A stretch of 34,958 nucleotides of DNA from Gelidibacter sp. (GTDB lineage Bacteria; Bacteroidota; Bacteroidia; Flavobacteriales; Flavobacteriaceae). Positions 958 to 31,003 of this stretch are shown piece after piece. The stretch covers positions 1 through 34,958 of the forward strand of contig JAAFHC010000011.1 in the NCBI GenBank assembly GCA_010906935.1. The letters run 5' to 3'. Below the pieces are notes generated by a model. The model did no database searches. It saw only the letters and a list, made by a program, of their open reading frames with translations, and was not told the DNA's origin. Position numbers and translations under genes: made by a program. Positions within the stretch are counted from its first letter, which is position 1. Every line of letters starts with the position of its first letter.

Positions 958-990
958 ATGTAGACATTTATTGTTTTTTATTTGTCATAT

Positions 991-1049: not shown

Positions 1050-1076
1050 ATACGAAGTCAAATTATTGACTTGGAA

Positions 1077-1120: not shown

Positions 1121-1140
1121 AATTGCCATGAGACTAAAGT

Positions 1141-1515: not shown

Positions 1516-1592
1516 AAATAAGTTTTAGTTAATAACTGGTTAATTAAGTCGTTAAAGTACAAATTTTCTTACACATGTAACATAGGTTACGC

Positions 1593-1600
1593 TAATTTTG
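1593..1600 (+). promoter_or_regulatory. Candidate -7 box for the thioredoxin gene
   Basis: TAATTTTG is an exact match to TAnnTTTG, 75 nt upstream of the thioredoxin start. I see no TTG at the expected distance upstream, so support is from the -7 box alone. Confidence 0.35.
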
Positions 1601-1675
1601 TAAGAATTGTGCTCACTTTGCATTCTGATAGAATGGCATAAAAATTGCTGATTTATAACTATTAAATTTAAAAAA

Positions 1676-2035
1676 ATGACAGAATTATTGACAAAAGAAA
1701 CTTTTTTAGAAAAGGTTTTTAATTTCGAAAAAAATAAAGATTGGAAATTTGAAGGTGACGTTCCATGCATTATTGACTTTTATGCAGATTGGTGTGGACC
1801 CTGTAAAATGGTAGCGCCAGTTTTAGAAGAATTAAGCAATGAATATAGTGGTAAACTAAACATTTATAAAGTGGATACTGAAGTTGAGCAGGAATTGGCT
1901 GCGGCTTTTGGTATTAGAAGTATTCCTTCAATGTTGTTTGTTCCAAAAGATTCAGAACCGCAAATGGCTCAAGGCGCTATGCCAAAACATGATTTGGAGA
2001 AAATTATTGCCGATGTTTTAAAGGTTTCAAAATAA
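1676..2035 (+). CDS. Thioredoxin
   Basis: The 119-residue protein has the classic active site WCGPCK (Cys40 and Cys43) after a beta strand (IIDFYADW) and the cis-proline segment IRSIPSMLF (Pro84). Length and motif order fit a cytoplasmic thioredoxin; there is no signal peptide. It would reduce protein disulfides with electrons from thioredoxin reductase. It has a slightly long N-terminal extension (residues 1-28) and an extra cysteine at 31. A strong hairpin terminator follows the stop, so it is probably monocistronic. I give no symbol because these genomes carry several thioredoxin paralogues. Confidence 0.92.
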   Translation: MTELLTKETFLEKVFNFEKNKDWKFEGDVPCIIDFYADWCGPCKMVAPVLEELSNEYSGKLNIYKVDTEVEQELAAAFGIRSIPSMLFVPKDSEPQMAQGAMPKHDLEKIIADVLKVSK

Positions 2036-2060
2036 ACCTCAGGAAAACCCCAAAAAGAAA

Positions 2061-2086
2061 AGCCGCATATTTTGCGGCTTTTTTGT
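2061..2086 (+). terminator. Rho-independent terminator of the thioredoxin gene
   Basis: AGCCGCA (2061-2067) pairs with TGCGGCT (2073-2079) around a 5-nt loop and is followed by a T-run interrupted by one G. It starts 26 bp after the stop codon. Confidence 0.85.
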
Positions 2087-2156
2087 TTTTGTTTGAGTAG
2101 CTCCCGTAGGGACAAGTCGCAATTTGGCTGTACAGAAATTATAAATCGTAATTCAA

Positions 2157-2246
2157 TTTGCGTTAGCGATAGAAGCGGCATCCTTTTTTTGAAGCTGAGC
2201 GGAAAAAAAAGATATAGCGGATAGAGCGACCTGAAAGGAAACGCCC
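2157..2246 (+). repeat. Dispersed intergenic repeat, copy A (about 90 bp, structured)
   Basis: The element begins TTTGCGTTA and ends AAACGCCC, with GCGTT (2160-2164) and AACGC (2240-2244) forming short terminal inverted repeats. The centre is a hairpin with seven T (2184-2190) opposite eight A (2203-2210). GATAGA-type and AGCGG/GCGAC blocks flank the hairpin. A diverged copy on the opposite strand (22024-22122) shares both ends and both flanking blocks but has a different hairpin. The rest of the 386-bp gap 2036-2421 holds the thioredoxin terminator, a decayed GC-rich palindrome near 2107-2135, pyrimidine-rich sequence and the candidate promoter of the next gene. I see no open reading frame in it that looks like a gene. 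Confidence 0.7.
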
Positions 2247-2351
2247 TATTTATGATTAAAGTAAAAGTTGAAGTGGAAAGTCTCTTTTCCCTAATCCCTT
2301 TTCTTATTCTTTTTTCTGTTCATAATTTTAGAATTACCTTTACTTTAGTAT

Positions 2352-2359
2352 TAAATTTG
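2352..2359 (+). promoter_or_regulatory. Candidate -7 box for the AsmA-like gene
   Basis: TAAATTTG matches TAnnTTTG exactly, 62 nt before the ATG. No convincing TTG sits 17-21 nt upstream. Confidence 0.4.
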
Positions 2360-2421
2360 CTAAACAAGATTACAAAATCAAACTAAAGACTAAATTTCAT
2401 CAATTTAAATATACATGAATC

Positions 2422-5022
2422 ATGAAAAAAGCATTTAAAATAATTGGAATCATTTTATTGATTTTTGCCATTGTACTTGTAGCTACGCCTTTTTTATTCA
2501 AAGGAAAAATAAAAGAATTGGTGCTAAAATCAATCAATAAAAATGTTGACGCGGTGGTGGCTTTTGAGGATGTAGATTTGAGTTTGTTCAAAAACTTTCC
2601 GAAAGCGACTGTTATAATTGATGATTTAAGCATTATTAACAAAGCTCCTTTTGAAAATGACACCTTATTTTATTCCAACACTTTCACTTTAAAAATGAGC
2701 ATTAAAGAACTTTTTAAAGGAAAAGGAGAACCTATGAGCATAGAGGCTTTTAGTAGCGAAAATGCGAAGGTTAATGTAATTTACAACAAAGATGGATTGT
2801 CAAATTATGACATTGCTTTAAAAAACAAAGATGAAAAAGATGCGGCAAAAAACGATGAATTTGCATTGAATTTTCAGAATTATACCGTTAAAAATCTTCG
2901 TTTTACTTATTTTGATGAAGCATCTAAAATGCGTGTGATTTTGGACAGCATCAATCACGAAGGCAGTGGCGATTTTAAAAATAAAATGTTGGATTTAAAA
3001 ACCAAATCTACCGCTAAAATGGCTGTTTCTATTGATAAAACAAACTATTTAAAAAATGTGGCATTGTCGCTTGATGCCGTTTTAGGATTGGATTTAGAAA
3101 ACTTTAAATATACTTTTAAAGAAAATGAAGCATTGGTTAATTTGTTGCCAATTGCATTTGACGGATCTATTCAGATGACAGACGCAGGGCAAGTTTATGA
3201 CATGAAATTTAAAACGCCAACGTCTTCTTTTAAAAACTTTTTGGGATTGATTCCCGAAATGTATTCAGGAAAATTGGATGGCGTAAAAACATCGGGTGAT
3301 TTTAAGGTAAACGGCGTTGTAAAAGGAACTTATTCTGACACCACAATTCCTGCTTTTGATGTTGAAATTGCTTCAAACAACGCCTCGTTTCAATATCCGA
3401 ATTTGCCAAAATCGGTTAATAATATTGTGATAAACTCCCGAATTGTAAACAAAACCGGAATATTTAACGACACGTATGTAAATCTTGATAAGTTGTCTTT
3501 TACCATTGACCAAGATGTATTTAACGCAAAAGCAACCATTCAAAATATTGCTGAAAACGCGCTGATTAATGCCGAAATTAAAGGAATTGTCAATTTGGCA
3601 AATGTAGCCAAAGCGTATCCCGTAAAGTTGGAAAAACCTTTAACTGGTATTTTAAAAGCAGATGTGGTAACACGTTTTGACATGAAATCGGTTGAAGCGA
3701 GCCAATATCAAAACATTCAAAATTCGGGAACCATTACGGTAACCGATTTTAATTATGAAAGTGAGGAAATGGCAAAACCATTTAAAATTAAACAAGCCGC
3801 CATTGCTTTCAATCCAAAAGACATTCGTTTGAATAAATTTGATGGGGAAACCGGAAATTCCGATTTTCAGGTAACGGGAAGTTTGGATAATTTTTATGGA
3901 TTTATTTTTAAAAATCAGGTGTTGAAAGGGAATTTTGATATGACTTCCCGTCAATTTGAAGTGGCCGATTTTATGGAATCCAAAACCGATACCTCCGCAA
4001 CAAAAACCTCCAAAGAAGCCTTAAAAATTCCTGCATTTTTAGATGTTACCATCAACGCCAAAGCGACAACGGTGGTTTATGACAATTTAAATTTGAAAGA
4101 AGTTTCGGGAAATTTGGCCATTAAAGATGAAGCCGTGACATTAAGCAATTTAAAAATGAATGTTTTTGGCGGACAAATAGCGTTAAGCGGCATGGTTTCA
4201 ACCAAAGAAAAAACGCCAAAATTCAATATGGACTTAGGATTAAATGCTTTAAACATTTCTGAATCTTTTACACAACTCGCCATGTTAAAAGCAATTGCGC
4301 CAATAGCCAATGCCGTTTTTGGAAAGTTAAATTCCACCATAAAATTATCGGGAAATTTAACCGATAATATGACGCCCGACCTTAAAACCATCACAGGAAA
4401 TTTGATAGGGCAATTGTTGGGCTCTAAATTAAGTCCTGCCAATTCGCAGTTGCTGACTTCTTTGGCTTCAAACGTGAAATTTATAGATCTCGAAAAGTTA
4501 AATTTGGACGCTTTGAAAATGGCGTTGACCTTTAAAGACGGCAAAGTTGAAATTAACCCATTTACACTAAAATACCAGGATATTAATATTGAAATTGCGG
4601 GTTCACATGGATTTGATCAAAGCATGGCTTACAACTTAAAATTTGATGTTCCTGCAAAATATTTAGGAACAGAAGTCAATAATTTAATTTCGAAATTAAC
4701 GCCTGCCGATGCCGCAAAAATTGAAAATTTTCCTATAAATGCAAATTTAACAGGAAGTTTTACAAATCCGAAAGTTTCAACCGACTTACAACAAGCCACC
4801 ACGCACTTAGTTACGCAGTTGGTTGATATGCAAAAAGGAAAACTCATCAATCAGGCTACCCAAGCTTTAGGTAATTTAATACCTGGAAAAACCAAAGTCG
4901 ATACCGCTAAAACCAAAAGTGCTGACACCACAAAAACTGTGACGCCAAAACAAACAATTGAGAAAGCAAAAGACAGTATTGTTCAAAATGCCTTAAAGAA
5001 TTTGTTTAAAAAGAAGCAATAA
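2422..5022 (+). CDS. AsmA-family envelope protein
   Basis: This 866-residue protein starts with a basic N-terminus and one transmembrane helix (about residues 7-27), followed by the AsmA-type opening ...KGKIKELVLKSINKNVDAVV, the point where these proteins leave the inner membrane. The rest is repetitive beta-rich sequence (many G-x-hydrophobic-x turns) typical of the AsmA/DUF748 fold. An AsmA C-terminal region lies around residues 540-800, and the tail is Lys/Thr-rich and probably disordered. AsmA-like proteins are periplasmic beta-groove proteins tied to outer-membrane biogenesis, and several relatives are thought to carry lipid between membranes; that role for this protein is inference. It is longer than E. 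coli AsmA (617 aa) but of normal size for Bacteroidetes. It has its own upstream spacer and looks monocistronic. Confidence 0.88.
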   Translation: MKKAFKIIGIILLIFAIVLVATPFLFKGKIKELVLKSINKNVDAVVAFEDVDLSLFKNFPKATVIIDDLSIINKAPFENDTLFYSNTFTLKMSIKELFKGKGEPMSIEAFSSENAKVNVIYNKDGLSNYDIALKNKDEKDAAKNDEFALNFQNYTVKNLRFTYFDEASKMRVILDSINHEGSGDFKNKMLDLKTKSTAKMAVSIDKTNYLKNVALSLDAVLGLDLENFKYTFKENEALVNLLPIAFDGSIQMTDAGQVYDMKFKTPTSSFKNFLGLIPEMYSGKLDGVKTSGDFKVNGVVKGTYSDTTIPAFDVEIASNNASFQYPNLPKSVNNIVINSRIVNKTGIFNDTYVNLDKLSFTIDQDVFNAKATIQNIAENALINAEIKGIVNLANVAKAYPVKLEKPLTGILKADVVTRFDMKSVEASQYQNIQNSGTITVTDFNYESEEMAKPFKIKQAAIAFNPKDIRLNKFDGETGNSDFQVTGSLDNFYGFIFKNQVLKGNFDMTSRQFEVADFMESKTDTSATKTSKEALKIPAFLDVTINAKATTVVYDNLNLKEVSGNLAIKDEAVTLSNLKMNVFGGQIALSGMVSTKEKTPKFNMDLGLNALNISESFTQLAMLKAIAPIANAVFGKLNSTIKLSGNLTDNMTPDLKTITGNLIGQLLGSKLSPANSQLLTSLASNVKFIDLEKLNLDALKMALTFKDGKVEINPFTLKYQDINIEIAGSHGFDQSMAYNLKFDVPAKYLGTEVNNLISKLTPADAAKIENFPINANLTGSFTNPKVSTDLQQATTHLVTQLVDMQKGKLINQATQALGNLIPGKTKVDTAKTKSADTTKTVTPKQTIEKAKDSIVQNALKNLFKKKQ

Positions 5023-5111
5023 GAAAACCATATTTTTTTTACAGAAATATAATATGGTGTCTAAACATAATACAGAAAATATTATAATAATTTAAAAGAA
5101 ATTTATACTTA

Positions 5112-5143
5112 TTGTTAATTTTTAATAAAAAAAAGTATATTTG
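5112..5143 (+). promoter_or_regulatory. Promoter of the first subtilase gene
   Basis: TTG (5112-5114), a 21-nt spacer, then TATATTTG (5136-5143), an exact match to the Bacteroidetes TTG-N19-21-TAnnTTTG arrangement. The start codon lies 28 nt downstream. Confidence 0.7.
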
Positions 5144-5171
5144 AACTCAACCTTTAAATACTTTATAAATT

Positions 5172-6392
5172 ATGAAGAAAACAAATTTTATGAGTTTTGC
5201 ATTTTTTGGAACAGCAATTTTGTTATTTGCAGCTTGTTCTAATGAAGAATCTATTGATGTAAATAGTTCCGCTATTGATCAAAGCGATGTTGTTGCCCAA
5301 CAAAGCCAGGTCATTGAAGGTTCTTATATTGTAGTTTTTGAAACAAAAATTACTGGAGATTTTGGTAAAAAATATGGAAATGACTACAAAGCGGCAAAAC
5401 GCGCTGTTGTAAGTGAAGCCCAAAAAATGTTTTCTGAAAACTCAATTGTTGATTTTGTAATTGAACAAAGTTATGGGATGGTATTAAATGGCGTTTCCGC
5501 TAAATTATCCAAAACTGATGTTGAAAAATTAGCAAAAGATAAAAGGGTAAAATATATTGAAGAGGATCAATTGGTAACATTGGCTCCTGGCGGAAAACCA
5601 GGTAGTGGCGGAGGTTCTACAGTTCAAGAAACACCTTGGGGAATTACACGTGTTAATGGCGTATCAAGTTATACAGGAAGCAATGTAGCCTGGGTTATTG
5701 ACACCGGGATAGATTTAGATCACCCGGATTTAAATGTAAATGCAAGCAGAGGTTTTAACGCTTTCACTTCTGGAAGAGATGCAGGTGCTCCAGATGATGG
5801 GAACGGTCATGGTTCTCACGTAGCGGGTACAATAGCTGCTAAAAATAACACTATTGGCGTTATTGGTGTGGCTCCCGGAGCTACCGTAATCCCAGTAAAA
5901 GTATTAGACAGCCGTGGAAGCGGATCTTATTCAGGCGTTATAGCAGGCGTAGATTTCGTTGCTGCAAACGGCAGTGTCGGTGATGTTGCAAATATGAGTT
6001 TGGGTGGACCAATATCTCAAGCTTTAGACGATGCCGTTCTTGCTGCTTCAAACAAGGGAATTAAATTTGCTTTGGCTGCAGGAAACGAAAGTAAAGACGC
6101 TAATACTTCATCTCCTGCAAGAGTTAATGGAGCAAATATCTATACGATTTCAGCGATGAGTGCTGGAGACAATTGGGCATCATTCTCTAATTTTGGAAAT
6201 CCACCAGTTGATTATTGTGCGCCAGGAGTATCTATAAAATCTACTTGGAAAGGTGGAGCTTATAATACTATTAGCGGCACTTCTATGGCTTCACCGCATG
6301 CAGCGGGTATTTTATTGCTTGGAAACGCTTCTTTCAGCGGAACAGTTAATGGAGATCCTGATGGCAATGCAGATAAAATTATGGTTCATTAA
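5172..6392 (+). CDS. Subtilisin-like serine peptidase (S8) lipoprotein
   Basis: The 406-residue precursor has a lipoprotein signal peptide with lipobox ending ...LLFAAC (Cys22). An inhibitor-I9-like propeptide spans about residues 50-137 (SYIVVFE ... VKYIEEDQ). A Gly-rich linker (PGGKPGSGGGS) leads to the catalytic domain. The triad is Asp177 (VIDTGIDLDHPDL), His213 (GHGSHVAG) and Ser371 (GTSMASPHAAG), with oxyanion Asn305 (AAGNES). All expected residues are present, so it should be an active endopeptidase. Acidic residues just after the lipidated cysteine (CSNEES) resemble surface-export signals of Flavobacteriia lipoproteins, so a cell-surface location is plausible but inferred. There is no type IX secretion C-terminal domain; the protein ends soon after the catalytic domain (DGNADKIMVH). 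It has its own promoter and terminator. Confidence 0.95.
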   Translation: MKKTNFMSFAFFGTAILLFAACSNEESIDVNSSAIDQSDVVAQQSQVIEGSYIVVFETKITGDFGKKYGNDYKAAKRAVVSEAQKMFSENSIVDFVIEQSYGMVLNGVSAKLSKTDVEKLAKDKRVKYIEEDQLVTLAPGGKPGSGGGSTVQETPWGITRVNGVSSYTGSNVAWVIDTGIDLDHPDLNVNASRGFNAFTSGRDAGAPDDGNGHGSHVAGTIAAKNNTIGVIGVAPGATVIPVKVLDSRGSGSYSGVIAGVDFVAANGSVGDVANMSLGGPISQALDDAVLAASNKGIKFALAAGNESKDANTSSPARVNGANIYTISAMSAGDNWASFSNFGNPPVDYCAPGVSIKSTWKGGAYNTISGTSMASPHAAGILLLGNASFSGTVNGDPDGNADKIMVH

Positions 6393-6410
6393 AAATCAAT
6401 AAAAAATAAT

Positions 6411-6440
6411 AAAAAAGGGAACTTTAAGCTCCCTTTTTTT
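6411..6440. terminator. Bidirectional terminator between the subtilase and asd genes
   Basis: AAAAAAGGGA and TCCCTTTTTT form a stem with a short inner AGCT-type extension, flanked by an A-run on one side and a T-run on the other. It can serve both the plus-strand subtilase gene and the convergent asd gene. Confidence 0.75.
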
Positions 6441-6464
6441 GTTCAAAAAATATCTTTTATTTAA

Positions 6465-7454
6465 CTAAACCAACTTGTTTGCAATCAAATATTCTGCAAT
6501 TTGGATGGTATTTGTTGCGGCACCTTTGCGCAAGTTATCGGCTACAATCCACATATTTAAAGTGTTTGGCTGAGATTCGTCTCTTCTGATTCGTCCTACA
6601 AAAACTTCATCTTTATTGTGTGCATAAATTGGCATTGGATACGTGTTGGTATCTAAATTGTCTTGTACGATAACTCCGGGAGTTTGACTTAACAATTTGC
6701 GCACTTCGCTTAAATCAAAATCCTTTTCAAACTGAACGTTCACCGCTTCTGAATGTCCGCCCGAAGTTGGAATCCGCACCGCTGTTGCGGTAACGGTAAA
6801 AGAATCGTCATTTAATATTTTCTTTGGTTCTTTAACCAATTTCATTTCTTCTTTGGTGTAGCCGTTTTCTAAAAAAACATCACACTGCGGAATGGCATTT
6901 CGGTTGATTGGATAATGATAAGCCATTTCTCCTTTGATGCCTTTAGACTCGTTTTCAAGTTGTTGCACCGCTTTTACGCCAGTTCCTGAAACAGATTGGT
7001 AGGTGGAGATTACCACACGTTTCATGTTGTATTTTTTGTGCAAAGGTGCCAAAGCCATCACCAATTGAATGGTTGAACAGTTTGGGTTTGCAATAATTTT
7101 ATCAGCCTTGGTTAACACATTTCCGTTAATTTCAGGAACCACTAATTTTTTAGTAGGATCCATCCGCCAGGCAGAAGAATTGTCAACAACCGTAGTTCCA
7201 GCTTCGGCAAATTTTGGCGCCCACATTTCAGAAGTGGTTCCGCCTGCAGAAAACAACGCAATATCAGGGCGCGCATTAACGGCGTCTTGCATTCCAATAA
7301 GGGTATATTTTTTTCCTCTATATTCCATTTGCTTTCCAACAGAACGTTCTGAAGCAACCAACAATAATTCCGTAATCGGAAAATTTCTTTCCGCCAACAC
7401 TTGTAACATGACGTTTCCTACCATCCCGGTAGCGCCTACAACAGCTACTTTCAT
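6465..7454 (-). CDS. asd: Aspartate-semialdehyde dehydrogenase
   Basis: The 329-residue enzyme reduces aspartyl phosphate to aspartate semialdehyde with NADPH, the branch point to lysine/diaminopimelate, threonine and methionine. The N-terminal nucleotide-binding motif is GATGMVG (residues 7-13). The catalytic cysteine is Cys126 in NPNCSTIQ and the catalytic base is His234 in RIPTSGGHSEAV. Length and motif spacing are normal. A minus-strand TTG-N18-AAAATTTG (7513-7485) is a possible imperfect promoter. The gene stands alone, convergent with the subtilase gene and sharing its terminator. Confidence 0.97.
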   Translation of the reverse strand: MKVAVVGATGMVGNVMLQVLAERNFPITELLLVASERSVGKQMEYRGKKYTLIGMQDAVNARPDIALFSAGGTTSEMWAPKFAEAGTTVVDNSSAWRMDPTKKLVVPEINGNVLTKADKIIANPNCSTIQLVMALAPLHKKYNMKRVVISTYQSVSGTGVKAVQQLENESKGIKGEMAYHYPINRNAIPQCDVFLENGYTKEEMKLVKEPKKILNDDSFTVTATAVRIPTSGGHSEAVNVQFEKDFDLSEVRKLLSQTPGVIVQDNLDTNTYPMPIYAHNKDEVFVGRIRRDESQPNTLNMWIVADNLRKGAATNTIQIAEYLIANKLV

Positions 7455-7603
7455 CTTAATTATTTTTTAATTTTTATACTGATGCAAATTTTATAAAAAA
7501 ATGCAAGAAACAAGCACTAAATTATTGAAAATTAACAGATAAATATTTTTCTGTTAAAAAAATGATAAAAGATTTGTAACTGAAATAGTTATTATAAAAA
7601 ATG

Positions 7604-7611
7604 TAATTTTG
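7604..7611 (+). promoter_or_regulatory. Candidate -7 box for the U32 gene
   Basis: TAATTTTG matches TAnnTTTG exactly and lies 18 nt before the ATG at 7630. It covers the TTG at 7609 that would otherwise extend the reading frame, which argues for the ATG as the true start. Confidence 0.45.
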
Positions 7612-7629
7612 CAAAAAATCAAAAACAGC

Positions 7630-8907
7630 ATGACTACTACAGGAAAAATTGAATTGATGGCTCCAGCCGGAAGTTTTGAATCGTTGCAGGCCGCATTGGA
7701 CAATGGCGCCGATTCAATTTACTTTGGTGTTGAGCAACTTAATATGCGCGCCAGGGCTTCCATAAATTTTACGATGGATGATTTGAAAGAAATTTCGGAG
7801 CGTTGCAAAGCAAAAAATGTAAGAACCTATCTCACCTTAAACACCATCATTTACGATCACGATTTATCTGTGGTTAAAACCTTGCTTCAAAAAGCAAAAG
7901 AGGCAGATATTACAGCGGTTATTGCGATGGATCAAGCAGTTATTGCTTCGGCAAGAGCTATTGGAATGGAAGTTCATATTTCAACCCAAATAAATGTGAC
8001 GAATATTGAAACAGTAAAATTTTACGCCATGTTTGCCGATACAATGGTATTGAGTCGCGAATTGAGTTTGCGACAGGTTAAAAAAATTACCGAGCAAATT
8101 GTGAAAGAAGACGTTCGCGGACCTTCAGGAAATTTATTGGAAATTGAAATATTCGGACACGGCGCCTTATGTATGGCGGTTTCCGGAAAATGTTATATGA
8201 GTTTGCATTCTTCAAACTCTTCAGCAAACAGAGGTGCCTGCAAACAAAATTGCCGAAAAAAATATACGGTAATTGATCAGGAAACCGGATTTGAAATGGA
8301 ATTGGACAATGAGTATATTATGTCTCCAAAAGATTTGTGTACCATCGATTTTTTGGATCAAATTGAAGATGCTGGCGTAAAAGTATTGAAAATTGAAGGA
8401 CGGGGAAGAGCGCCCGAATATGTGGCCAATGTAATAAAATGTTACCGCGATGCCATTGACAGTATTGAAGCGGGAACATACAGCAAGGAAAAAGTGATTT
8501 CTTGGATGTTGGATTTGGAAAAAGTGTACAATCGCGGATTTTGGAGCGGCTATTATTTGGGACAAAAATTAGGCGAATGGAGCAATGGTTCCGGAAGCCA
8601 CGCCACACAAAAAAAGGTATATGTAGGCAAGGGAATGCATTATTTCCCAAAAACCAACATTGCTGAATTTAAAATTGAAGCTTACGAAATTGCCATTGGC
8701 GACACCATTTTAATTACCGGTCCAACCACTGGCGCCAAAGAAATGGAAATTACCCAAATGTTTATCAATGACGTTGTGGGAGAAAAAGCCCAAAAAGGAG
8801 ATTCTTGTACTTTTAAAGTTGATTTTAGAATTCGTCCATCCGATAAATTGTACAAAATTGTTCCTATGAATGCTGAAGTTGGAAGTGCGATTGTTGAAGT
8901 TGGGTAA
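7630..8907 (+). CDS. U32-family peptidase-like protein, probably TrhP-type tRNA hydroxylation protein
   Basis: I chose the ATG at 7630 (MTTTGKIELMAPAG, 425 aa) because the upstream TTG lies inside the -7 box. The protein opens with the U32 signature ELMAPAGSFESLQAAL and carries the core EIEIFGHGALCMAVSGKCYM followed by a cysteine cluster (GACKQNC). In characterised relatives such cysteines hold an iron-sulfur cluster. E. coli TrhP (YegQ, about 450 aa) forms 5-hydroxyuridine at the tRNA wobble position; RlhA, which modifies 23S rRNA, is much longer. Size and the C-terminal domain favour the TrhP branch, though the TrhP assignment is family-level inference. The stop codon abuts the heptamer array at 8917. 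Confidence 0.88.
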   Translation: MTTTGKIELMAPAGSFESLQAALDNGADSIYFGVEQLNMRARASINFTMDDLKEISERCKAKNVRTYLTLNTIIYDHDLSVVKTLLQKAKEADITAVIAMDQAVIASARAIGMEVHISTQINVTNIETVKFYAMFADTMVLSRELSLRQVKKITEQIVKEDVRGPSGNLLEIEIFGHGALCMAVSGKCYMSLHSSNSSANRGACKQNCRKKYTVIDQETGFEMELDNEYIMSPKDLCTIDFLDQIEDAGVKVLKIEGRGRAPEYVANVIKCYRDAIDSIEAGTYSKEKVISWMLDLEKVYNRGFWSGYYLGQKLGEWSNGSGSHATQKKVYVGKGMHYFPKTNIAEFKIEAYEIAIGDTILITGPTTGAKEMEITQMFINDVVGEKAQKGDSCTFKVDFRIRPSDKLYKIVPMNAEVGSAIVEVG

Positions 8908-22963: not shown

Positions 22964-22991
22964 TTGTTCAACATAAATTCTTGTATCTTTG
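22964..22991 (+). promoter_or_regulatory. Promoter of the metallo-hydrolase gene
   Basis: TTG (22964-22966), a 17-nt spacer and TATCTTTG (22984-22991), an exact -7 box. The ATG at 23008 lies 16 nt downstream. The box makes the earlier in-frame TTG at 22981 an unlikely start. Confidence 0.6.
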
Positions 22992-23007
22992 TGTTAAAGT
23001 TTTATTT

Positions 23008-23868
23008 ATGAAAATTTACCCCATTGAAACAGGAAACTTTAAACTGGATGGTGGCGCTATGTTTGGCGTAGTTCCTAAGGTAATATGGCAACGCACAAAT
23101 CCCGCAGATGAAAATAACTTAATTGATATGGCATTGCGCTGTATGCTTATTGAAGATGGAGACCGACTTATTTTAATCGACAACGGTACCGGAAACAAAC
23201 AACCCGATAAGTTTTTTAGCTATTATTATTTCTTTGGCGATTTTTCTTTAGATGCCTCTTTGGCAAAATATGGTTTTCATAGAGATGATATTACCGATGT
23301 TTTTTTAACCCATTTGCATTTCGACCACTGCGGCGGAAGCATTCAGTGGAATAAAGACCGCACTGGTTATGAACCAACGTTTAAAAATGCCAAATTTTGG
23401 AGCAATAAAAATCATTGGAAATGGGCTGTTGAACCAAATCCGAGAGAAAAAGCCTCGTTTTTGACAGAAAACATAAACCCGATCCAAGAAAGCGGACAAT
23501 TAAATTTAGTGGACTTACCAACTGGTGATTTTGCCAAAAACACGCCGCTTGGTTTCGATATTTTATTTGCAAACGGGCATACCGATAAACTCATGATTCC
23601 GCACATTCAGTACCAGGATAAAACCATTGTTTTTGTGTCGGATTTGTTGCCGACCGTTGGGCATATTCCTTTGCCTTACGTAATGGGATATGACACGCGT
23701 CCGCTATTGACCATGGAAGAAAAGGATAAATTCTTAAACAATGCTGCCGACAACAATTATTTTTTGTTCTTTGAGCATGATGCAACCAACGAAATTTGTA
23801 CCGTAAAACACACCGAAAAAGGCGTGCGATTAAACCAAACCTATACATTTAACGAAGTATTTAATTAA
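23008..23868 (+). CDS. Metallo-beta-lactamase-fold hydrolase
   Basis: The 286-residue protein starts at the ATG at 23008 (MKIYPIETGNFKLDGGAMFG). The zinc motif HxHxDH is THLHFDHCGG (His102, His104, Asp106, His107). Further likely ligands are in ANGHTDK and FFEHDA. There is no signal peptide, so it is cytoplasmic. Members of this branch include lactonases and other small-ester hydrolases; the substrate cannot be told from sequence, and I would not call it a quorum-quenching lactonase without tests. The next gene, a subtilase lipoprotein, starts 14 bp downstream, so the two are probably co-transcribed. Confidence 0.92.
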   Translation: MKIYPIETGNFKLDGGAMFGVVPKVIWQRTNPADENNLIDMALRCMLIEDGDRLILIDNGTGNKQPDKFFSYYYFFGDFSLDASLAKYGFHRDDITDVFLTHLHFDHCGGSIQWNKDRTGYEPTFKNAKFWSNKNHWKWAVEPNPREKASFLTENINPIQESGQLNLVDLPTGDFAKNTPLGFDILFANGHTDKLMIPHIQYQDKTIVFVSDLLPTVGHIPLPYVMGYDTRPLLTMEEKDKFLNNAADNNYFLFFEHDATNEICTVKHTEKGVRLNQTYTFNEVFN

Positions 23869-23882
23869 CACAAAACAAAAGA

Positions 23883-25526
23883 ATGAGAATATTTAAATCG
23901 ATGTTTGTTGTTGCATTGGCAACAATTTCATTAGCAAGTTGCGGTTCTGTAAAATCTATCTCAGATAAGCCAGTTCCAACAATGGAAACTACTGTTTCCA
24001 TGACACAAAAGAAAGGCGCCATTGGCGAAGAACAATTCAATCATTGGGCACATGCCGATTTAGTGGCAGATACCATTCCTGGAATGAGCTTGGACAAAGC
24101 ATATAAATTTTTAGAAGGAAAAAAAGGCGTAACTGTCATTGTTGGCGTTATTGATTCTGGAATTGACATTGAGCACGAAGATTTAAAAGACGTGCTTTGG
24201 ACCAATACCAAAGAAATTGCCGGAAATGGAATTGACGATGACAATAATGGTTATGTGGATGATATTTACGGATGGAATTTTTTAGGAGGAAACGGTGTTG
24301 CCGCTCCTGAACAATTAGAAATTACACGCATTGTGGCTAAATTAAATCCACGTTTTGAAGGTAAGACCTTGGAAAATATTAGTGAAGCTGACAAAGCCGA
24401 CTTTAAAAAATACCAAGAATATCTTGATGCTTATAAAGCCGCTTCTTCAAGACATTTTCAAACTTTGACCCGCATGGAACAAATAGGCGCAAATTTTGCT
24501 GCGGTAAAAAAATACTTAGGTAAAGAAGCAATTACCTTGGAAGATTTACATGGAATCAATACCGATGACCAAACATTAAAAACGCAAGTTGGAGATTTGA
24601 TTGGCTTGTTTGGAAGAGGTTTGGATGAAGATGCCTATTTAGATTATTATGAAACTCAAAAGAAAAATAAAAACTACGATTTTAATTTTAACGGACGAGC
24701 CATTGTTGGGGACAATCCGGAAGATTTCAACAACAGAAATTACGGAAACGGATTTGTGATCGGTTCAAAAGATGAAGAGTCTCACGGTACTCATGTTTCT
24801 GGAATTATTTTAGCTTCAAGAAATAACAACAAAGGATTGCAAGGAGTTGCCCACAACGCAAAATTAATGTCTGTTCGGGCGGTGCCAGATGGTGATGAGC
24901 GCGATAAAGATGTTGCGTTGGCGATTAGATATGCCGTAGACAATGGCGCAAAAGTAATCAACATGAGTTTTGGAAAAAGTTTTTCACCCAACAAAGAATG
25001 GGTTTTTGACGCCATAAAATATGCTGAAAAACACGATGTTTTGTTGGTGCACGCTGCCGGAAACGACAATAAAAATATTGATGTAAAAGACAATTTCCCA
25101 AATGATTCTGAAGATAAAGTAACCGAAATTTCCGACAATGTAATTACCATTGGTGCATTGAGCGCCAATTTTAACGAAAATATGCTGGCTTCATTTTCTA
25201 ATTACGGCAAACTAAATATTGATGTGTTTGCTCCTGGAGTACAAATTTATTCAACAGTGCCAAAAGATGAATATGCAAAATTTAGCGGTACTTCTATGGC
25301 TTCACCGGAAGTTGCCGGTATTGCAACATTAATTCGTTCTTATTATCCGCAATTGTCTGCAAGACAGGTAAAACACATCATTATGAATTCAGGTGTTAAA
25401 GTAAATTTACAAGTTCTTATTCCTGGACAAAAAGGTGAAAAATCCCAATTTTCAAGCTTGTCAAAAGCGGGAAGTATAGCAAATGCTTACAACGCCTTGT
25501 TATTAGCTGATAAAATGGTTAATTAA
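23883..25526 (+). CDS. Subtilisin-like serine peptidase (S8) lipoprotein with a large insert
   Basis: The 547-residue precursor has a signal peptide with lipobox SLASC (Cys20). The triad is Asp91 (VIDSGIDIEHEDL), His301 (SHGTHVSG) and Ser471 (GTSMASPEVAG), with Asn394 (AAGND) for the oxyanion hole. About 210 residues separate Asp91 from His301, compared with 36 in the first subtilase of this window. The extra sequence (about 138-290) is helical and charged, with no motif I recognise. An acidic calcium-loop-like stretch (GIDDDNNGYVDD) follows Asp91. There is no obvious I9 propeptide, only about 40 residues before the catalytic domain. It is likely a periplasmic or outer-membrane protease. It is 14 bp from the metallo-hydrolase gene and ends at a strong terminator. 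Confidence 0.94.
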   Translation: MRIFKSMFVVALATISLASCGSVKSISDKPVPTMETTVSMTQKKGAIGEEQFNHWAHADLVADTIPGMSLDKAYKFLEGKKGVTVIVGVIDSGIDIEHEDLKDVLWTNTKEIAGNGIDDDNNGYVDDIYGWNFLGGNGVAAPEQLEITRIVAKLNPRFEGKTLENISEADKADFKKYQEYLDAYKAASSRHFQTLTRMEQIGANFAAVKKYLGKEAITLEDLHGINTDDQTLKTQVGDLIGLFGRGLDEDAYLDYYETQKKNKNYDFNFNGRAIVGDNPEDFNNRNYGNGFVIGSKDEESHGTHVSGIILASRNNNKGLQGVAHNAKLMSVRAVPDGDERDKDVALAIRYAVDNGAKVINMSFGKSFSPNKEWVFDAIKYAEKHDVLLVHAAGNDNKNIDVKDNFPNDSEDKVTEISDNVITIGALSANFNENMLASFSNYGKLNIDVFAPGVQIYSTVPKDEYAKFSGTSMASPEVAGIATLIRSYYPQLSARQVKHIIMNSGVKVNLQVLIPGQKGEKSQFSSLSKAGSIANAYNALLLADKMVN

Positions 25527-25552
25527 ACGACAAAACTTATAATTTTCTGTTA

Positions 25553-25584
25553 AAAAAACATACGGCTTGCCGTGTGTTTTTTTT
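25553..25584 (+). terminator. Terminator after the second subtilase gene
   Basis: AAAAAACATACGGC pairs with GCCGTGTGTTTTTT around a 2-nt apex, with one T-G pair, followed by more T. It lies about 25 bp after the stop and separates this gene from the M1 peptidase. Confidence 0.85.
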
Positions 25585-25630
25585 GTTTTATAAAGTAATG
25601 TTTATATTGCGGCAAATAAATAAACCTCAT

Positions 25631-27475
25631 ATGAAAAGATTTTTTGTAATTCTTTTGACAATTATTTCATCCATAGTTTTTGCGCAAAACAACACTTCTT
25701 ACTGGCAACAAAATGCCGATTACAAAATGGATGTGGATGTTGATGCAGAAAATTATCAGTATAAAGGAACACAAGAATTGACCTACACAAACAATTCTCC
25801 AGACGAATTAAATTTCGTTTTTTATCATTTGTATTACAACGCTTTTCAGCCAAATAGTGAAATGGACGCCCGACTACAATCAGTTGTTGACCCAGATAAA
25901 AGAATGGTAAATAATATTGGCACCAAAGAAAATCCGGTTTATGAAAGTAGAATTGCCAAATTGAAACCCAATGAAATTGGCTATTTAAAAGTGTTGTCGC
26001 TAAAACAAAATGGAAAAGACGTAAAATACAGCATCGACGGAACTGTTTTAAAAGTGACTTTAAATGACCAAATTCAACCGGGAGAAATAGTAAAATTTGA
26101 CATGAATTTTGAAGGACAAGTTCCTGTTCATATTCGTAGAGCCGGAAGAAACAGTAAAGATGGCGTGGCGCTTTCAATGGCGCAATGGTATCCAAAAATG
26201 GCGGAATATGATTTTGAAGGCTGGCACGCAGATGCTTATATTGCCCGTGAATTTCATAGCGTTTGGGCAAATTTTGACGTTACCCTTCATATTGATAAAA
26301 CATATACAGTTGGCGGAACGGGCTATTTACAAAATCCGCAGGAAGTTGGCCATGGCTATGAAGATAAAACAAAGGCATTGAAGCTTCCGAAGAAAAAAAA
26401 ATTGAAATGGCATTTTATTGCACCAAATGTTATTGATTTCACTTGGGCAGCCGACCCAAATTATGTGCACGATATTTTAAAAACGGAAAGCGGAACAGAA
26501 CTTCATTTCCTCTACAAAAAAGACAAAAAATATGCTAAAGCATGGAAAGAAGTTCAACCTTTAACAGAAAAGGCCCTAAAGTATTTTAATGAAAACATTG
26601 GTCAGTATCCTTGGAAACAATATTCAGTGATTCAAGGCGGTGATGGCGGTATGGAATATGCCATGTGCACTTTAGTTGAGGGTGGAGAAACCTTAAATGA
26701 CATTGTTGGAACGGTTTTTCACGAATTGGCGCATAGCTGGTTTCAACAAATTTTGGCAACCAATGAGAGCAAACATTCATGGATGGATGAAGGTTTTACC
26801 TCGTACGTTTCAACAATGGCTTCCAGCTTAATTTTGGAAGGCGGCGACGGCAAGCCTAATTCAAAAGGTTACAGAGGCTATTTTTACGCAGTGAAAAACA
26901 ATTTTGAAGAACCATTAACCACGCACGCCGACCGATTTAACACCAATGCCGCTTTCAGTGTTGGAAGTTATACCAAAGGAAGTATGTTTTTATACCAACT
27001 GAACTATATCATCGGAGAAGAAAATGTTCAAAAAACAATCAAAAAATATTATGAAGATTTTAAATTCAAACACCCAACGCCTAATGATATCAAACGAACT
27101 GCCGAGAAAATATCGGGGATTCAGTTGGATTGGTTTTTGAATGAATGGACTCAAACAACGCATACAATTGATTATGCCGTGGCGAAAGTTGAAGGAACTT
27201 CGGTTACGTTGGCGCGAGTTGGGCAAATGCCAATGCCTATTGATATTGCAGTTACTTATGTTGATGGCAGCACAGAAAACTTTTATATTCCTTTAAGTAT
27301 GATGCGTGGTGAAAAAACCACCGATGCAACTGTTATAAAAAATTGGTCTTGGGCACAGCCAACCTATATTTTTTCTGCTTCAAAAGAGGTGAAAAAGGTT
27401 GAAATTGACCCTTCTCAATTGATGGCCGATATTGATCGAGGTAATAATGTGTTTGGCGAGGCGCATAAAATTTGA
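25631..27475 (+). CDS. M1-family zinc metallopeptidase, secreted
   Basis: I start it at the ATG at 25631 (MKRFFVILLTIISSIVFAQN, 614 aa), which gives a clean Sec signal peptide cut before Gln19. An earlier in-frame ATG at 25574 lies in the terminator T-run. The N-terminal beta domain is followed by GGDGGMEY (residues about 336-343), a variant of the exopeptidase GAMEN motif. The zinc site is HELAHSW (His364, Glu365, His368) with the third ligand Glu387 in WMDEGF. It should be a periplasmic or exported aminopeptidase-type enzyme. The GGMEY variant is common in Bacteroidetes M1 proteins. No promoter with a clear TAnnTTTG was found. Confidence 0.94.
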   Translation: MKRFFVILLTIISSIVFAQNNTSYWQQNADYKMDVDVDAENYQYKGTQELTYTNNSPDELNFVFYHLYYNAFQPNSEMDARLQSVVDPDKRMVNNIGTKENPVYESRIAKLKPNEIGYLKVLSLKQNGKDVKYSIDGTVLKVTLNDQIQPGEIVKFDMNFEGQVPVHIRRAGRNSKDGVALSMAQWYPKMAEYDFEGWHADAYIAREFHSVWANFDVTLHIDKTYTVGGTGYLQNPQEVGHGYEDKTKALKLPKKKKLKWHFIAPNVIDFTWAADPNYVHDILKTESGTELHFLYKKDKKYAKAWKEVQPLTEKALKYFNENIGQYPWKQYSVIQGGDGGMEYAMCTLVEGGETLNDIVGTVFHELAHSWFQQILATNESKHSWMDEGFTSYVSTMASSLILEGGDGKPNSKGYRGYFYAVKNNFEEPLTTHADRFNTNAAFSVGSYTKGSMFLYQLNYIIGEENVQKTIKKYYEDFKFKHPTPNDIKRTAEKISGIQLDWFLNEWTQTTHTIDYAVAKVEGTSVTLARVGQMPMPIDIAVTYVDGSTENFYIPLSMMRGEKTTDATVIKNWSWAQPTYIFSASKEVKKVEIDPSQLMADIDRGNNVFGEAHKI

Positions 27476-27556: not shown

Positions 27557-28714
27557 TCAATCAACCACCAATCTGGGTAAATTTTCCGGCAATCGGGTCA
27601 ATAATTCATAATTTACCTGTTCGCTAAATTCACTGAATGAGGAAACACTTATTTCTAAATCGCCTTGTTTGCCTATTAAAACAACTTCATCGCCTTTTTC
27701 TACTGAATTTATTTGACTAACGTCAACCGTAATCATATTCATATTTACAGTACCTACAACACTCACGCGCTGTCCGTTAATCAACACAATGCCTTGATTG
27801 CTTAAATTTCGGCTAAAACCGTGTGCATAACCAACAGGAATGATGGCTATTTTTAAATCGTAATTGGCAAGATAAGAGGTTCCGTAACCAACAAATTCAC
27901 CTGTTTTAACTTTTTTAACATCCATTACACGACTTTTCCAAGAAATAAGGCGTTGTAACGGATTTTGGTTTTCTTTCTTTTTGGTTAAATATTCAATTAA
28001 AATTTCTTTATTTGGGAAAAATCCATATTGAATAATCCCCAATCTAACCATATCCATTTGGAATTTTGGGTAACGTAAAGCGGCGGCAGAACAAGCTGTA
28101 TGTTTTTGCTCGGGATTTAAACTTGCAGCAGCCACTTTTTTTACCGCTTTTTGATAAATGTGTTGCTGCTTTTTAATTCGATAGTAATTGGCAATGCTTT
28201 CTGCGCCTGCAAAATGTGTACAAAGACCTTTAAAAAAGAGATAATCACTATTATTTTTCAGCAATTTCAATACTGCCGGAAGTTGATCCAAAGCAAACCC
28301 TGTTCTGTTCATTCCAGTTTCCACTTCTATGTGAACTTTCGCAATTTTCCCTATTCTTTTGGCTGCTTCAAGTGCTTTTTCTAAACGGCCAAATTCAAAT
28401 ACATAAAATTCAATATTATTTTCAATAGCCCATTCCAGTTGCTCATTGTTGATCAAGCCCATAATCATCACCGTACTGTTTTCACAAATTGAGTTATGAA
28501 CACGTAAAGCCTCATCTGCACTAAATACTGAAAAATGATCGATTCCACAGTGTTCTGCCAATGGAACAAATACTTCCAAGCCATGTCCGTATGCATTTCC
28601 CTTTACTACAGAAGATATTTTTACGCCATTCCCAATAAAGTCTTTTAAAAATTGAAGGTTGTGCTCCAGCGCAGATTTGCTGATTTCCAGATAGGAGGTG
28701 TGGTATATTTTCAT
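27557..28714 (-). CDS. alr: Alanine racemase-family PLP enzyme with unusual active-site residues
   Basis: The 385-residue protein has the fold-type III racemase layout: PLP lysine Lys38 in SSVVKGNAYGHG and catalytic tyrosine Tyr277 in VGYGTSY, plus GYAHG further on. Two canonical positions differ. The lysine of the usual K-x-D-T-G-M segment, carbamylated in well-studied alanine racemases, is Glu130 here (HIEVETGMNR). The usual R-V-(C/S)-M-D-Q motif reads TVNMNM (322-327). The enzyme is therefore surely a PLP racemase relative, but alanine as substrate is not assured. D-alanine for peptidoglycan is the default role. Its ATG overlaps the stop of an M20 amidohydrolase gene (ATGA), so the two are translationally coupled. 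Confidence 0.85.
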   Translation of the reverse strand: MKIYHTSYLEISKSALEHNLQFLKDFIGNGVKISSVVKGNAYGHGLEVFVPLAEHCGIDHFSVFSADEALRVHNSICENSTVMIMGLINNEQLEWAIENNIEFYVFEFGRLEKALEAAKRIGKIAKVHIEVETGMNRTGFALDQLPAVLKLLKNNSDYLFFKGLCTHFAGAESIANYYRIKKQQHIYQKAVKKVAAASLNPEQKHTACSAAALRYPKFQMDMVRLGIIQYGFFPNKEILIEYLTKKKENQNPLQRLISWKSRVMDVKKVKTGEFVGYGTSYLANYDLKIAIIPVGYAHGFSRNLSNQGIVLINGQRVSVVGTVNMNMITVDVSQINSVEKGDEVVLIGKQGDLEISVSSFSEFSEQVNYELLTRLPENLPRLVVD

Positions 28715-29865
28715 GATAAAATTTGTAAACTTATTTGATGAAACAGTTGAATACCAACAGGTAAAATTTCATCTGGAAAATCGTAATCCGGATTATGAAG
28801 AGCCGGACTTTTTTCTCCTGAGCCAATACCAAACATTGCGCCTTTAAAATGTTGTGTAAACAAGCCAAAATCTTCTCCCCATTTAAAAGGAAATTTTCTT
28901 TGAAAAATGTCAAAAGACAAACTTGACGCGGCTTCTCTAATTAAGGAAACAGCAGTGTCATCATTTTGGTTCGCAAAAAATTCATGAGTCCACGAATAGG
29001 TTATTGGCATTTGATGATTTTCAGAAGCTTTTTCAATGCAATTTATGATGTCAGCGGTTAATTTTTCCATATTTTCTTCATCCCAAGTGCGGATAGTTAG
29101 TCGTACTTCACCGTAGCCTGCAGAAATTCCGTAAGCGATTTCACCCATTTCAACATGAACTGGTGTTATTAAAGTAAAATCATCCCTGTTTGGATCATTG
29201 TTTGAAAGTTTTGCCGATTCTTGCAAAATTTCTGCAATGGCAAGTGCCGGATTTAAACCATTTTCTGGCTCTGCGGCATGTGCTGTTTTTCCATTAATTT
29301 GAATAATAATACTTTTTACGCCGGCAGTGAATGAATTGTTTTTAACCACAATTTGGTTTAAAGGATACGCAGGAAGGTTGTGAAAAGCAAAAATATAATC
29401 GGGTTTTAAAGCTTCAAATTTTGGGTCGGCAAACACTGCTTTTGCGCCTTCGCCGTCTTCTTCCGCAGGTTGAAACAGTAAAAACACTTTTCCGGTTTTT
29501 GGTTTTTGTTCAGATAAAATGATGGCCAAGCCCAATAAAACCGTTGTATGCCCGTCGTGTCCGCATTTATGAGAAACGCCATCAATGGATGATTTATGCG
29601 CAAATGTATTGATTTCCTGTATCGGCAAGGCATCCAATTCTGCCCTAAACATGACCGATTTCCCAGATTTCCCACTATCAAAAATAGCCACAATACCTGT
29701 TCCTCCAATATTTTCAATGACTTTGGTAGGCTTGCAGGTTTTTAAAAATTTAGAAACGCTTTTCGCGGTGTTGTACTCTTTTCCCGAAACTTCCGGATTG
29801 GCGTGCAGCATTTTACGAAATGTAACGAGTTCTTTCATTAATTCATTATTAATCATTGGTTCCAT
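28711..29865 (-). CDS. M20-family amidohydrolase (N-acyl-amino-acid/peptide deacylase type)
   Basis: The 384-residue protein has the M20D hallmarks: FRAELDALPI, HKCGHDGHTTVLLG with the metal-binding Cys and His residues, FQPAEEDGEGA with the catalytic glutamates, and FAFHNLPAYP. The dimerisation domain includes GKTAHAAEPENGLNPA. There is no signal peptide, so it is cytoplasmic. The family removes acyl or acetyl groups from amino acids or cleaves small amides (hippurate, acetyl-diaminopimelate, indole-acetyl-amino acids); the exact substrate is not readable. The start could be ATG 29865 or the second methionine at residue 4 (MINNELMKEL). It is transcribed first, and the racemase gene follows with a 4-bp overlap. 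Confidence 0.92.
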   Translation of the reverse strand: MEPMINNELMKELVTFRKMLHANPEVSGKEYNTAKSVSKFLKTCKPTKVIENIGGTGIVAIFDSGKSGKSVMFRAELDALPIQEINTFAHKSSIDGVSHKCGHDGHTTVLLGLAIILSEQKPKTGKVFLLFQPAEEDGEGAKAVFADPKFEALKPDYIFAFHNLPAYPLNQIVVKNNSFTAGVKSIIIQINGKTAHAAEPENGLNPALAIAEILQESAKLSNNDPNRDDFTLITPVHVEMGEIAYGISAGYGEVRLTIRTWDEENMEKLTADIINCIEKASENHQMPITYSWTHEFFANQNDDTAVSLIREAASSLSFDIFQRKFPFKWGEDFGLFTQHFKGAMFGIGSGEKSPALHNPDYDFPDEILPVGIQLFHQISLQILS

Positions 29866-30167: not shown

Positions 30168-30737
30168 ATGTCTGTAAAAGATAAACAATTTTTAAATCCG
30201 GAAAAATGGGTCAGCTTACATGCCGATTATCTTTTCAATTATACCATTAGCCGGCTTAACGATAGAGATTTGGCCAAAGACTTGGTGCAGGATACTTTTT
30301 TTTCGGCTTTAAAAGCAAAGGATAATTTTAAAGGAGAATCAAGCGAACGCACATGGTTAATCGCTATTCTAAAACGTAAAATTGTTGATTATTACCGTAA
30401 AATTAATTCGACAAAAGGCAAGGCTGAAGTGCGCATGAGTTTTTATGCGGAAGGTGAAAGGGAAGGAGAATGGCTGGAAGAACGCGCCCCAACCGATTGG
30501 AGCGGTGAAATTGAAAAAAGGATTGAAAACGAAGAATTGGCCATTGTTTTGGAAAAATGCATTGGAAACTTGCCCGAAAAATATGCCATGGTTTTTAGAA
30601 TGAAAACCGTGCATCAAATTGAAACGGAGGATATTTGTAATGAACTTGAAATTACTTCGACAAATTTTTGGGTAATTATTCACAGAGCCAGAACCCAACT
30701 CAGAAAATGCATGGAAGAAAATTGGTTTAAAATTTAA
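30168..30737 (+). CDS. ECF-type sigma-70 family RNA polymerase sigma factor
   Basis: The 189-residue protein has region 2 (about residues 18-78: HADYLFNYTISRLNDRDLAKDLVQDTFF through TWLIAILKRKIVDYYRK) and region 4 (about 132-185: LPEKYAMVFRMKTV, ICNELEITSTNFWVIIHRARTQLR). The linker carries a charged stretch (GEREGEWLEERAPTDWSG). There is no region 3, as in ECF factors. It would direct RNA polymerase to a small regulon. The next gene, 11 bp downstream, encodes a small Cys/His protein with the layout of a zinc-binding anti-sigma factor, the usual partner arrangement. The ECF subgroup cannot be assigned by eye. Confidence 0.93.
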   Translation: MSVKDKQFLNPEKWVSLHADYLFNYTISRLNDRDLAKDLVQDTFFSALKAKDNFKGESSERTWLIAILKRKIVDYYRKINSTKGKAEVRMSFYAEGEREGEWLEERAPTDWSGEIEKRIENEELAIVLEKCIGNLPEKYAMVFRMKTVHQIETEDICNELEITSTNFWVIIHRARTQLRKCMEENWFKI

Positions 30738-30748
30738 AAAACAGGAAC

Positions 30749-31003
30749 ATGAAAATTACGTGTGACGAAGCAACTGAAATTTGTGATAAAAACCAGTACA
30801 AGGAAGCTTCTCTTTGGGAAAAAATGAAACTCGGTATTCATTTATTTTTATGTAAAAAATGTGGACTTTACGCCAAACAAAACAAGGTCATGAGTGTTTG
30901 TTTGCAAAAATTAAAGGAAGTGGAAAGCCATAAAGGACAACATTTAAACCAAGATGAAATGAATTGCATGGCGCAAGAACTGAAAACTAAAATAGAATCG
31001 TAA
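30749..31003 (+). CDS. Small Cys/His protein, candidate zinc-binding anti-sigma factor
   Basis: The 84-residue protein has H-x3-C-x2-C (His31, Cys35, Cys38 in HLFLCKKC), the core of zinc-binding anti-sigma (ZAS) proteins, with upstream cysteines at 5 and 12 that could give the fourth ligand. There is no transmembrane segment, so it would be cytosolic like RsrA or ChrR-type anti-sigmas. It starts 11 bp after the sigma gene. Two more cysteines (50 and 73) raise the option of redox sensing. The protein is short, and the anti-sigma role rests on the motif and on gene order. An inverted repeat AAAAGTGTTTAAG (31010-31022) against the later TTAAGCACTTTT (31074-31085) lies beyond it, with a long loop; I do not call it a terminator. 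Confidence 0.7.
   Translation: MKITCDEATEICDKNQYKEASLWEKMKLGIHLFLCKKCGLYAKQNKVMSVCLQKLKEVESHKGQHLNQDEMNCMAQELKTKIES

Follow-up and report, generated by a model that had tools for sequence, protein, structure and literature searches.

Does the alanine-racemase-like gene at positions 27557..28714 (minus strand) of the window, by which we mean the whole 34,958-nucleotide stretch of DNA analysed, encode an ordinary enzyme for the supply of D-alanine to the cell wall, or does its product have another task? The product, a 385-aa protein with an ATG start that is named Alr2 here together with its relatives, carries both Ala_racemase_N and Ala_racemase_C (PF01168, 166 bits; PF00842, 137 bits; both far above the cut-off). 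It passed the alanine racemase profile TIGR00492 with 308 bits (cut-off 168) and stayed below the cut-offs of the VanT serine racemase profile NF033131 (258 bits, cut-off 460), the MurF-Alr profile NF008897 (245.8 bits, cut-off 804, with a match confined to profile positions 457-815) and the broad-specificity racemase profile NF009879 (176 bits, cut-off 434), the last of which was passed by an Aeromonas Bsr and a Proteus Lyr-type protein. The best sequence and fold matches of Alr2 were alanine racemases, e.g., T. tengcongensis 4y2w and C. difficile 4luy. Among the best 80 of 551 matches, the closest named Alr2 proteins had 88-92% identity and came from three Lutibacter, one Flavobacteriaceae and one Bacteroidetes MAG, which makes a host in or near Lutibacter probable. 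Inspection by eye found no evident signal peptide in Alr2 and a signal-peptide-like start in L165, a member of the Bsr group.

The predicted Alr2 monomer had a mean pLDDT of 84.4, with residues 297-306 and 349-373 below 50. Foldseek analysis showed that the 50 best matches listed were all Alr-type racemases, with TM scores by query of 0.81-0.87. The model fitted the structures of Alr, VanT and Bsr about equally, so it confirmed the fold and did not separate Alr from Bsr; as a monomer that is weak in these two segments, it is uninformative on partner-subunit contacts.

Active-site residues were counted over 80 sequences (the window and 79 named loci, from the best 80 of 551 matches; L074 left out), and the codon coordinates, all on the minus strand, were computed from the ORF start. 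The first-pass annotation had described three features of the active site, and the counts agreed with each of them. The PLP lysine and the catalytic tyrosine, which it regarded as kept, are Lys38 (28601..28603) and Tyr277 (27884..27886), both found in 80/80. The glutamate that it placed at the position of the carbamylated lysine is Glu130 (28325..28327), which sits in HIEVETGMNR (HIEVETGM from residue 128) at the Lys129 position of Geobacillus numbering; this position is Glu in 78, Asp in one and Asn in one of the 80 sequences, and Lys in none. The change of R-V-(C/S)-M-D-Q to TVNMNM lies at residues 322-327, where TVNMNM stands in place of R-V-C-M-D-Q. Within it, Asn324-Met325-Asn326 (27737..27745) corresponds to the canonical Cys/Ser-Met-Asp. 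Position 324 is Asn in 65 of the 80, Thr in 10, Gly in 3 and Ser in 2, Met325 is invariant, and position 326 is Asn in 78 and Ser in 2.

Arg137 (28304..28306), the arginine held by the carbamate in canonical Alr, and the inner-layer gate Tyr369 (27608..27610; Tyr354 of Geobacillus Alr) were also found in 80/80 of these sequences from the best 80 of 551. At position 170, aligned with the inner-layer Ala169 of other Alrs, all 80 have Gly, and Tyr42, Glu132, His167, Ala171, Glu172, Ser209, Arg224, Trp259, Tyr296 and Arg302 are equally invariant; position 138 is Thr in 75/80. Position 298 (27821..27823), the canonical Asp of GYADG, is His in the window and in 53 of the 80 (Asn 12, Trp 5, Asp 1, others 9), and position 378, the canonical C-terminal Arg, is Asn in the window (Asn 30, Asp 30, Arg 2, others 18 of 80). 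So the Asp-Asp-Arg salt-bridge set (D313, D285 and R363 in PMC10288493) is gone in Alr2, where Asn326, His298 and Asn378 are found; we take D285 and R363 to be Alr2 298 and 378, partly on sequence spacing.

Counts over further sequences gave a similar picture. The 15 order-level Alr2 orthologs were all acidic at position 130 (13 Glu, 2 Asp). In 19 further genome loci (L011, L015, L017 and L021 left out), position 130 was Glu in 15, Asp in 2, His in one and Gln in one, and Asn324 was present in 19/19. Over all 99 Alr2 sequences (80 from the best 80 of 551 and these 19), position 130 was neither Glu nor Asp (Asn, His or Gln) in three. Since Asn324 is not universal, the pairing of Glu with Asn is loose. 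In one Alr2 homologue, L021 (G090:C38:9227-10324), the PLP-lysine and TGMNR regions are scrambled in an open frame, and it is possibly a degenerating or frameshifted copy.

For comparison, the Alr domains of the order outside Alr2 were taken as housekeeping, and 78 distinct ones, from 120 matches, were counted. Of these, 76 have Lys and two have Glu at position 130, position 324 was Cys in 65, Ser in 12 and Ala in one, and Asp298, Asp326 and Arg378 were present in 78/78. The two Glu-bearing domains, L023 (G046) and L029 (G093), belong to MurF-Alr fusions that are otherwise canonical (Cys/Asp/Asp/Arg), and because they are closely related, this Glu probably reflects one event. Glu130 as the sole diagnostic of Alr2 was rejected because 2 of the 78 housekeeping domains carry it. 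Another Alr, L149 (G488), has Tyr at the carbamyl-lysine position.

The genome (3.32 Mb, 296 contigs, 95% complete; the window is contig C201) contains two proteins with both Alr domains, namely Alr2 and a stand-alone 367-aa Alr whose motifs are canonical (HIKFNTG, with the Lys, and NVCMDM). Alr2 is thus not the sole racemase of its genome, and being the sole one was part of what the first-pass annotation had set against its own proposal. Its idea that a MurF-Alr fusion could leave Alr2 free for another task did not hold in that form: no such fusion was found in this 95%-complete genome, and the other full Alr is the stand-alone 367-aa ORF. The gene for the 367-aa Alr adjoins a thymidine-kinase-like ORF (named by eye). 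Beyond these, contig C39 encodes a shorter protein with PF01168, which resembles YggS in size only, and contig C29 encodes an Orr-like racemase homologue. An order-level search found an Alr2 ortholog in 16 genomes, 14 of which had a second Alr; the two genomes in which no second Alr was found are 76% and 68% complete.

In a phylum search of 395 genomes, Alr2 orthologs (E <= 8.5e-94) were found in 43 genomes as 46 copies, with two copies each in G351, G240 and G335, and after a gap the next match came only at 5.6e-57. According to the record names, the 79 named loci (best 80 of 551) comprise 68 from Bacteroidota, three from Ignavibacteriota and two unplaced, together with one each from Rhodothermota, Balneolota, Cloacimonadota, Sumerlaeota, Altimarinota and Pseudomonadota, these single ones being MAGs that could be mislabelled. 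Culturable carriers among the best 80 of 551 include Flavobacterium frigoris, Pontibacter and Salibacter. Among 425 plasmid records, the Persicobacter sp. JZB09 plasmid (L164; CP012861.1, 632 kb) carries an Alr2-like match of 52% identity, and the next best match had 33%.

Phylogenetic analysis placed Alr2 in a single clade, both in the first tree (31 Alr2 of 75 rows, support 100/99) and in the second tree, from which nine trait columns had been removed (30 Alr2 of 71 rows, 100/100). L074 (kept in alignment A3), L143, VanT and the Orr-like proteins were left out of all trees, and L022, L026, L160, L156, L029, L036 and L169 were left out of the second and third trees. The clade stands apart from the Alr and MurF-Alr proteins of the order, including the other Alr of this genome; it did not join the order's housekeeping Alrs, and clustering with proven Glu-bearing alanine racemases was another outcome that the first-pass annotation had set against its own proposal of a distinct racemase subgroup. 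That proposal is borne out by the single clade and by the separate canonical Alr in the same genome. Alr2 is likely a distinct subgroup with a task other than the supply of wall D-Ala.

Directly upstream of alr2 and overlapping it by ATGA lies the gene of an M20 amidohydrolase (28711..29865, minus strand), which is M20D-like (TIGR01891, 226 bits, cut-off 153.75) and whose nearest solved chain is YxeP 1ysj (E 1e-43). Within the best 80 of 551 matches, M20 was directly upstream of Alr2 on the same strand in 68 of the 75 loci with an upstream ORF, with a median gap of -0.5 base and at most 30 bases in 62 of these 68, and no further M20 match was found elsewhere in the named loci. The flanks analysed were up to 8 kb and often ended by the contig (L074 left out), and families were named from representatives. 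Within the flanks of the 79 loci (best 80 of 551), an Orr-like gene was found in 36, GNAT in 31, SSF in 29 and MarR in 10, and the Orr-like gene was directly downstream of Alr2 in 32 of the 76 loci with a downstream ORF. Over the 395 genomes, 34 had both Alr2 and the Orr-like protein, 9 Alr2 only, 15 the Orr-like protein only and 337 neither (odds ratio 85, Fisher p 4e-29, a test that ignores shared ancestry); the query for the Orr-like search was the 39-residue start of one Orr-like protein, at E 0.001. Two Orr-like proteins gave 312 and 316 bits with the Orr profile, below its cut-off of 480, so we treat them as relatives of Orr and do not claim family membership.

In the present genome the set is split, with M20-Alr2 in the window and MarR, GNAT, SSF and the Orr-like gene consecutive on contig C29. 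This row (L171, G000:C29:12500-27500, 513-8248) adjoins genes for a 4-hydroxyproline epimerase (594 bits, cut-off 376), an FAD amino-acid oxidoreductase and an aldehyde dehydrogenase. We did not build on a hydroxyproline link, because it was repeated within the flanks of only 2 of the 79 named loci (best 80 of 551). Both loci with a 4-hydroxyproline epimerase cluster beside the Alr2 operon are Tenacibaculum (L117, L122). In five other loci (L091, L094, L106, L114 and L123; by record four Bacteroidales and one Sphingobacteriia), a beta-eliminating-lyase-like gene (one sequence tested; threonine-aldolase-like by eye) lies one or two places 3' of Alr2 and hints at serine or threonine chemistry.

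Other genes in the window near alr2 were noted as well. At positions 22981-27475, three consecutive genes converge on alr2: a lactonase-like gene of the metallo-beta-lactamase fold (176 bits with the YtnP model, whose cut-off is 425), followed in the list by those of an S8 and an M1 peptidase. Divergent from M20-alr2, positions 30168-31003 hold an ECF sigma factor that scored 162.2 bits, right at the cut-off of TIGR02943, beside which a short anti-sigma-like protein scored just below its cut-off.

Taking gene order and residues together, we lean towards Alr2 being a dedicated non-housekeeping racemase that is coupled to M20 and helps the cell to take up and assimilate, or to detoxify, amino acids in D- or N-acyl form. 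In such a pathway, the SSF symporter would import the amino acid, either free or N-acylated (by analogy with the yxe route only), GNAT would acetylate and M20 would deacylate the amino acid (again by analogy only), and Alr2, acting as a racemase together with the Orr-like racemase, would turn the freed amino acid into the usable enantiomer, a direction that we infer from this scheme. The set may be regulated by MarR, and alr2 is probably translationally coupled to M20.

In the active site, Glu130 and Asn324 of the partner subunit would hold the substrate-binding Arg137 and so replace the pair of carbamyl-lysine and Cys or Ser, which means that CO2 or chloride would not be needed. The first-pass annotation had put a permanent carboxylate where the carbamate would be. 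Arg137 is indeed kept, but, judged from side-chain length, Glu falls several bonds short of carbamyl-lysine. Its carboxylate cannot coincide exactly with the carbamate, and the geometry of Alr2 must differ from this picture. With less assurance we suggest that Alr2 may be a new fold-type-III racemase subfamily of Bacteroidota and apparently some neighbouring phyla, in which the Glu/Asp130 carboxylate and Asn hold the arginine without CO2 or chloride, and which would belong to an undescribed operon of M20, GNAT, a sodium symporter and the Orr-like racemase that salvages D- or N-acyl-amino acids.

On a substrate other than alanine, which the first-pass annotation had suggested as a possibility, the evidence points both ways. 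Asn326 and the absent Arg378 are as in Bsr, and these Bsr-like changes, with a relative of ornithine racemase nearby, argue for a different amino acid. Against this, the gate Tyr is kept in 80/80 (best 80 of 551), and Glu occurs on its own in the two MurF-Alr fusions. In the available text of PMC3485190, the inner tyrosine pair that includes Tyr354 (Alr2 Tyr369) confines Alr to alanine, and Lyr and Bar have Thr or Ala at this position; the kept Tyr369 would thus favour a small substrate, Ala, Ser or similar.

The gate is also one of the points in favour of taking Alr2 for an ordinary second alanine racemase (catabolic, DadX-like) with an unchanged substrate, in which Glu130 and its neighbours are tolerated drift. 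Tyr277, Tyr296 and Tyr369 are all kept in 80/80 (best 80 of 551), the TIGR00492 score is well on the alanine racemase side, two otherwise canonical MurF-Alr fusions have the same Glu, and working Alrs with Lys, Asn or Ala at this position are described in the available text of PMC2743695 and PMC4628008. However, Asp298, Asp326 and Arg378, each present in 78/78 housekeeping domains, have changed jointly and stably in Alr2, Gly170, Ala171, Glu172 and Trp259 are each 80/80 (best 80 of 551), and the usual neighbour is an M20 amidohydrolase. Drift without a change of substrate is a serious explanation, though we consider it less likely.

Alr2 might also be a broad-specificity racemase of the Bsr/Bar/Lyr type without a signal peptide. 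Both lack the canonical C-terminal Arg, and Asn326 is natural in Bsrs (available text of PMC10288493; 6/6 Bsr rows). Support for Alr2 as sister to Bsr was 96/98 in the first tree; in the third, which had more Bsrs and 30 Alr2, it was 78/95. But this sisterhood appeared in only 48% of 200 bootstrap trees once the nine trait columns were removed, and an AU test did not reject Alr2 joined with 13 other Alrs (11 mid-scoring Bacteroidota matches, 4y2w and 4luy; p 0.477), so we take a sister relationship of Alr2 and Bsr as possible only. The residues also differ. The six Bsr rows, some of which are near-identical, have Ala/Gly130, Asn132, Asn138, Asp298, Ser324, Asn326 and Thr/Ser378, and at the gate Ala in three, Thr in two and Pro in one, whereas Alr2 has Glu130, Glu132, Thr138, His298 and the gate Tyr. 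Alr2 fails NF009879, keeps the gate Tyr and has Thr138 instead of Asn, but shares Asn326; we regard a broad-specificity racemase as improbable. A search for the Bsr family in 118 Bacteroidota genomes at E 1e-60 gave no matches in any of them, nor in the controls, and so carries no information.

Fold type III also holds non-racemases, and the amidohydrolase, beta-eliminating-lyase (one sequence tested) and Orr-like neighbours leave the chemistry open, but a non-racemase PLP enzyme (decarboxylase, dehydratase, aldolase) or a regulatory PLP protein is very improbable, as the racemase bases Lys38 and Tyr277 with Arg224 are kept in 80/80 (best 80 of 551), both Alr domains score far above the cut-off, and the 50 best structures listed by fold are Alr-type racemases.

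About 100 natural sequences (80 from the best 80 of 551, and 19 more) have the carbamyl-lysine replaced, together with coupled changes, and alanine racemase is an established drug-target enzyme. They suggest that some Bacteroidota genes scored as alanine racemase are not cell-wall enzymes. The locus also provides a candidate operon for D- or N-acyl-amino-acid handling; in open-access literature searches we found no description of this operon or of Glu at the carbamyl-lysine position.

A near counterpart of the proposed route is the yxe (scm) operon of B. subtilis, in which GNAT, a transporter and the M20 deacetylase YxeP work in one salvage route, and YxeP deacetylates N-acetylcysteine as the last step of an acetylation, breakdown and deacetylation sequence begun by the acetyltransferase (available text of PMC9706529). 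It differs from the Alr2 operon in that its transporter is an ABC transporter and not SSF, its substrate is S-(2-succino)cysteine, and no racemase is among the genes named in that text.

Alr2 shares with Alr (TIGR00492; 4y2w, 4luy) the fold and the domain pair, the PLP Lys and the catalytic Tyr, as well as Arg137, Arg224 and gate Tyr369, and differs in Glu130, Asn324, Asn326, His298, Asn378, Gly170, its own clade and the M20 neighbour. At the gate, 4y2w itself differs from Alr2 by having Gln, and this T. tengcongensis enzyme has a wider specificity than its Tyr mutant (available text of PMC4517790). The MurF-Alr fusions of Bacteroidota share the Alr domain and, in the close kin L023 and L029, Glu130; they differ in the fused MurF, the canonical Cys/Asp/Asp/Arg and a separate clade. 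In most Alrs, the Asp at Alr2 position 326 and a second Asp bind an Arg; the Asp-to-Asn change there, natural in Bsrs, lowered the D-cycloserine affinity of the M. tuberculosis enzyme 240-fold (available text of PMC10288493). Bsr/Bar and Lyr (4bf5, 4dyj, 4dza, 4beu) resemble Alr2 in having Asn326 and in lacking both the carbamyl-lysine and the C-terminal Arg. In Lyr and Bar, an Asn beside the Arg (N174 of Lyr) does the job of the missing Lys, and changing it to Leu abolished activity (available text of PMC3485190).

Like Alr2, B. anthracis Alr and B. subtilis Alr2 (5irp) are without a carbamylatable lysine and have Asn at this position. In B. anthracis Alr the Arg is held by another device, in which Asn with chloride replaces the carbamyl-lysine (available text of PMC2743695; repeated in that of PMC3146814), and 5irp keeps Asp298, Asp326 and Arg378, which Alr2 does not. 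L. salivarius Alr has Ala there and is activated by short carboxylates, and S. aureus Alr is cited as using sulphate (both in the available text of PMC4628008). Across 105 aligned Alrs, Asn was paired with Thr in every case and Lys with Ser or Cys in nearly every case (available text of PMC2743695). The partner of Asn is Thr in B. anthracis Alr and 5irp, whereas Glu of Alr2 goes with Asn (65/80) or Thr (10/80) in the best 80 of 551 matches. The Glu of Alr2 with Asn or Thr stands beside the known Lys with Cys/Ser, Asn with Thr and Ala with Ser pairs.
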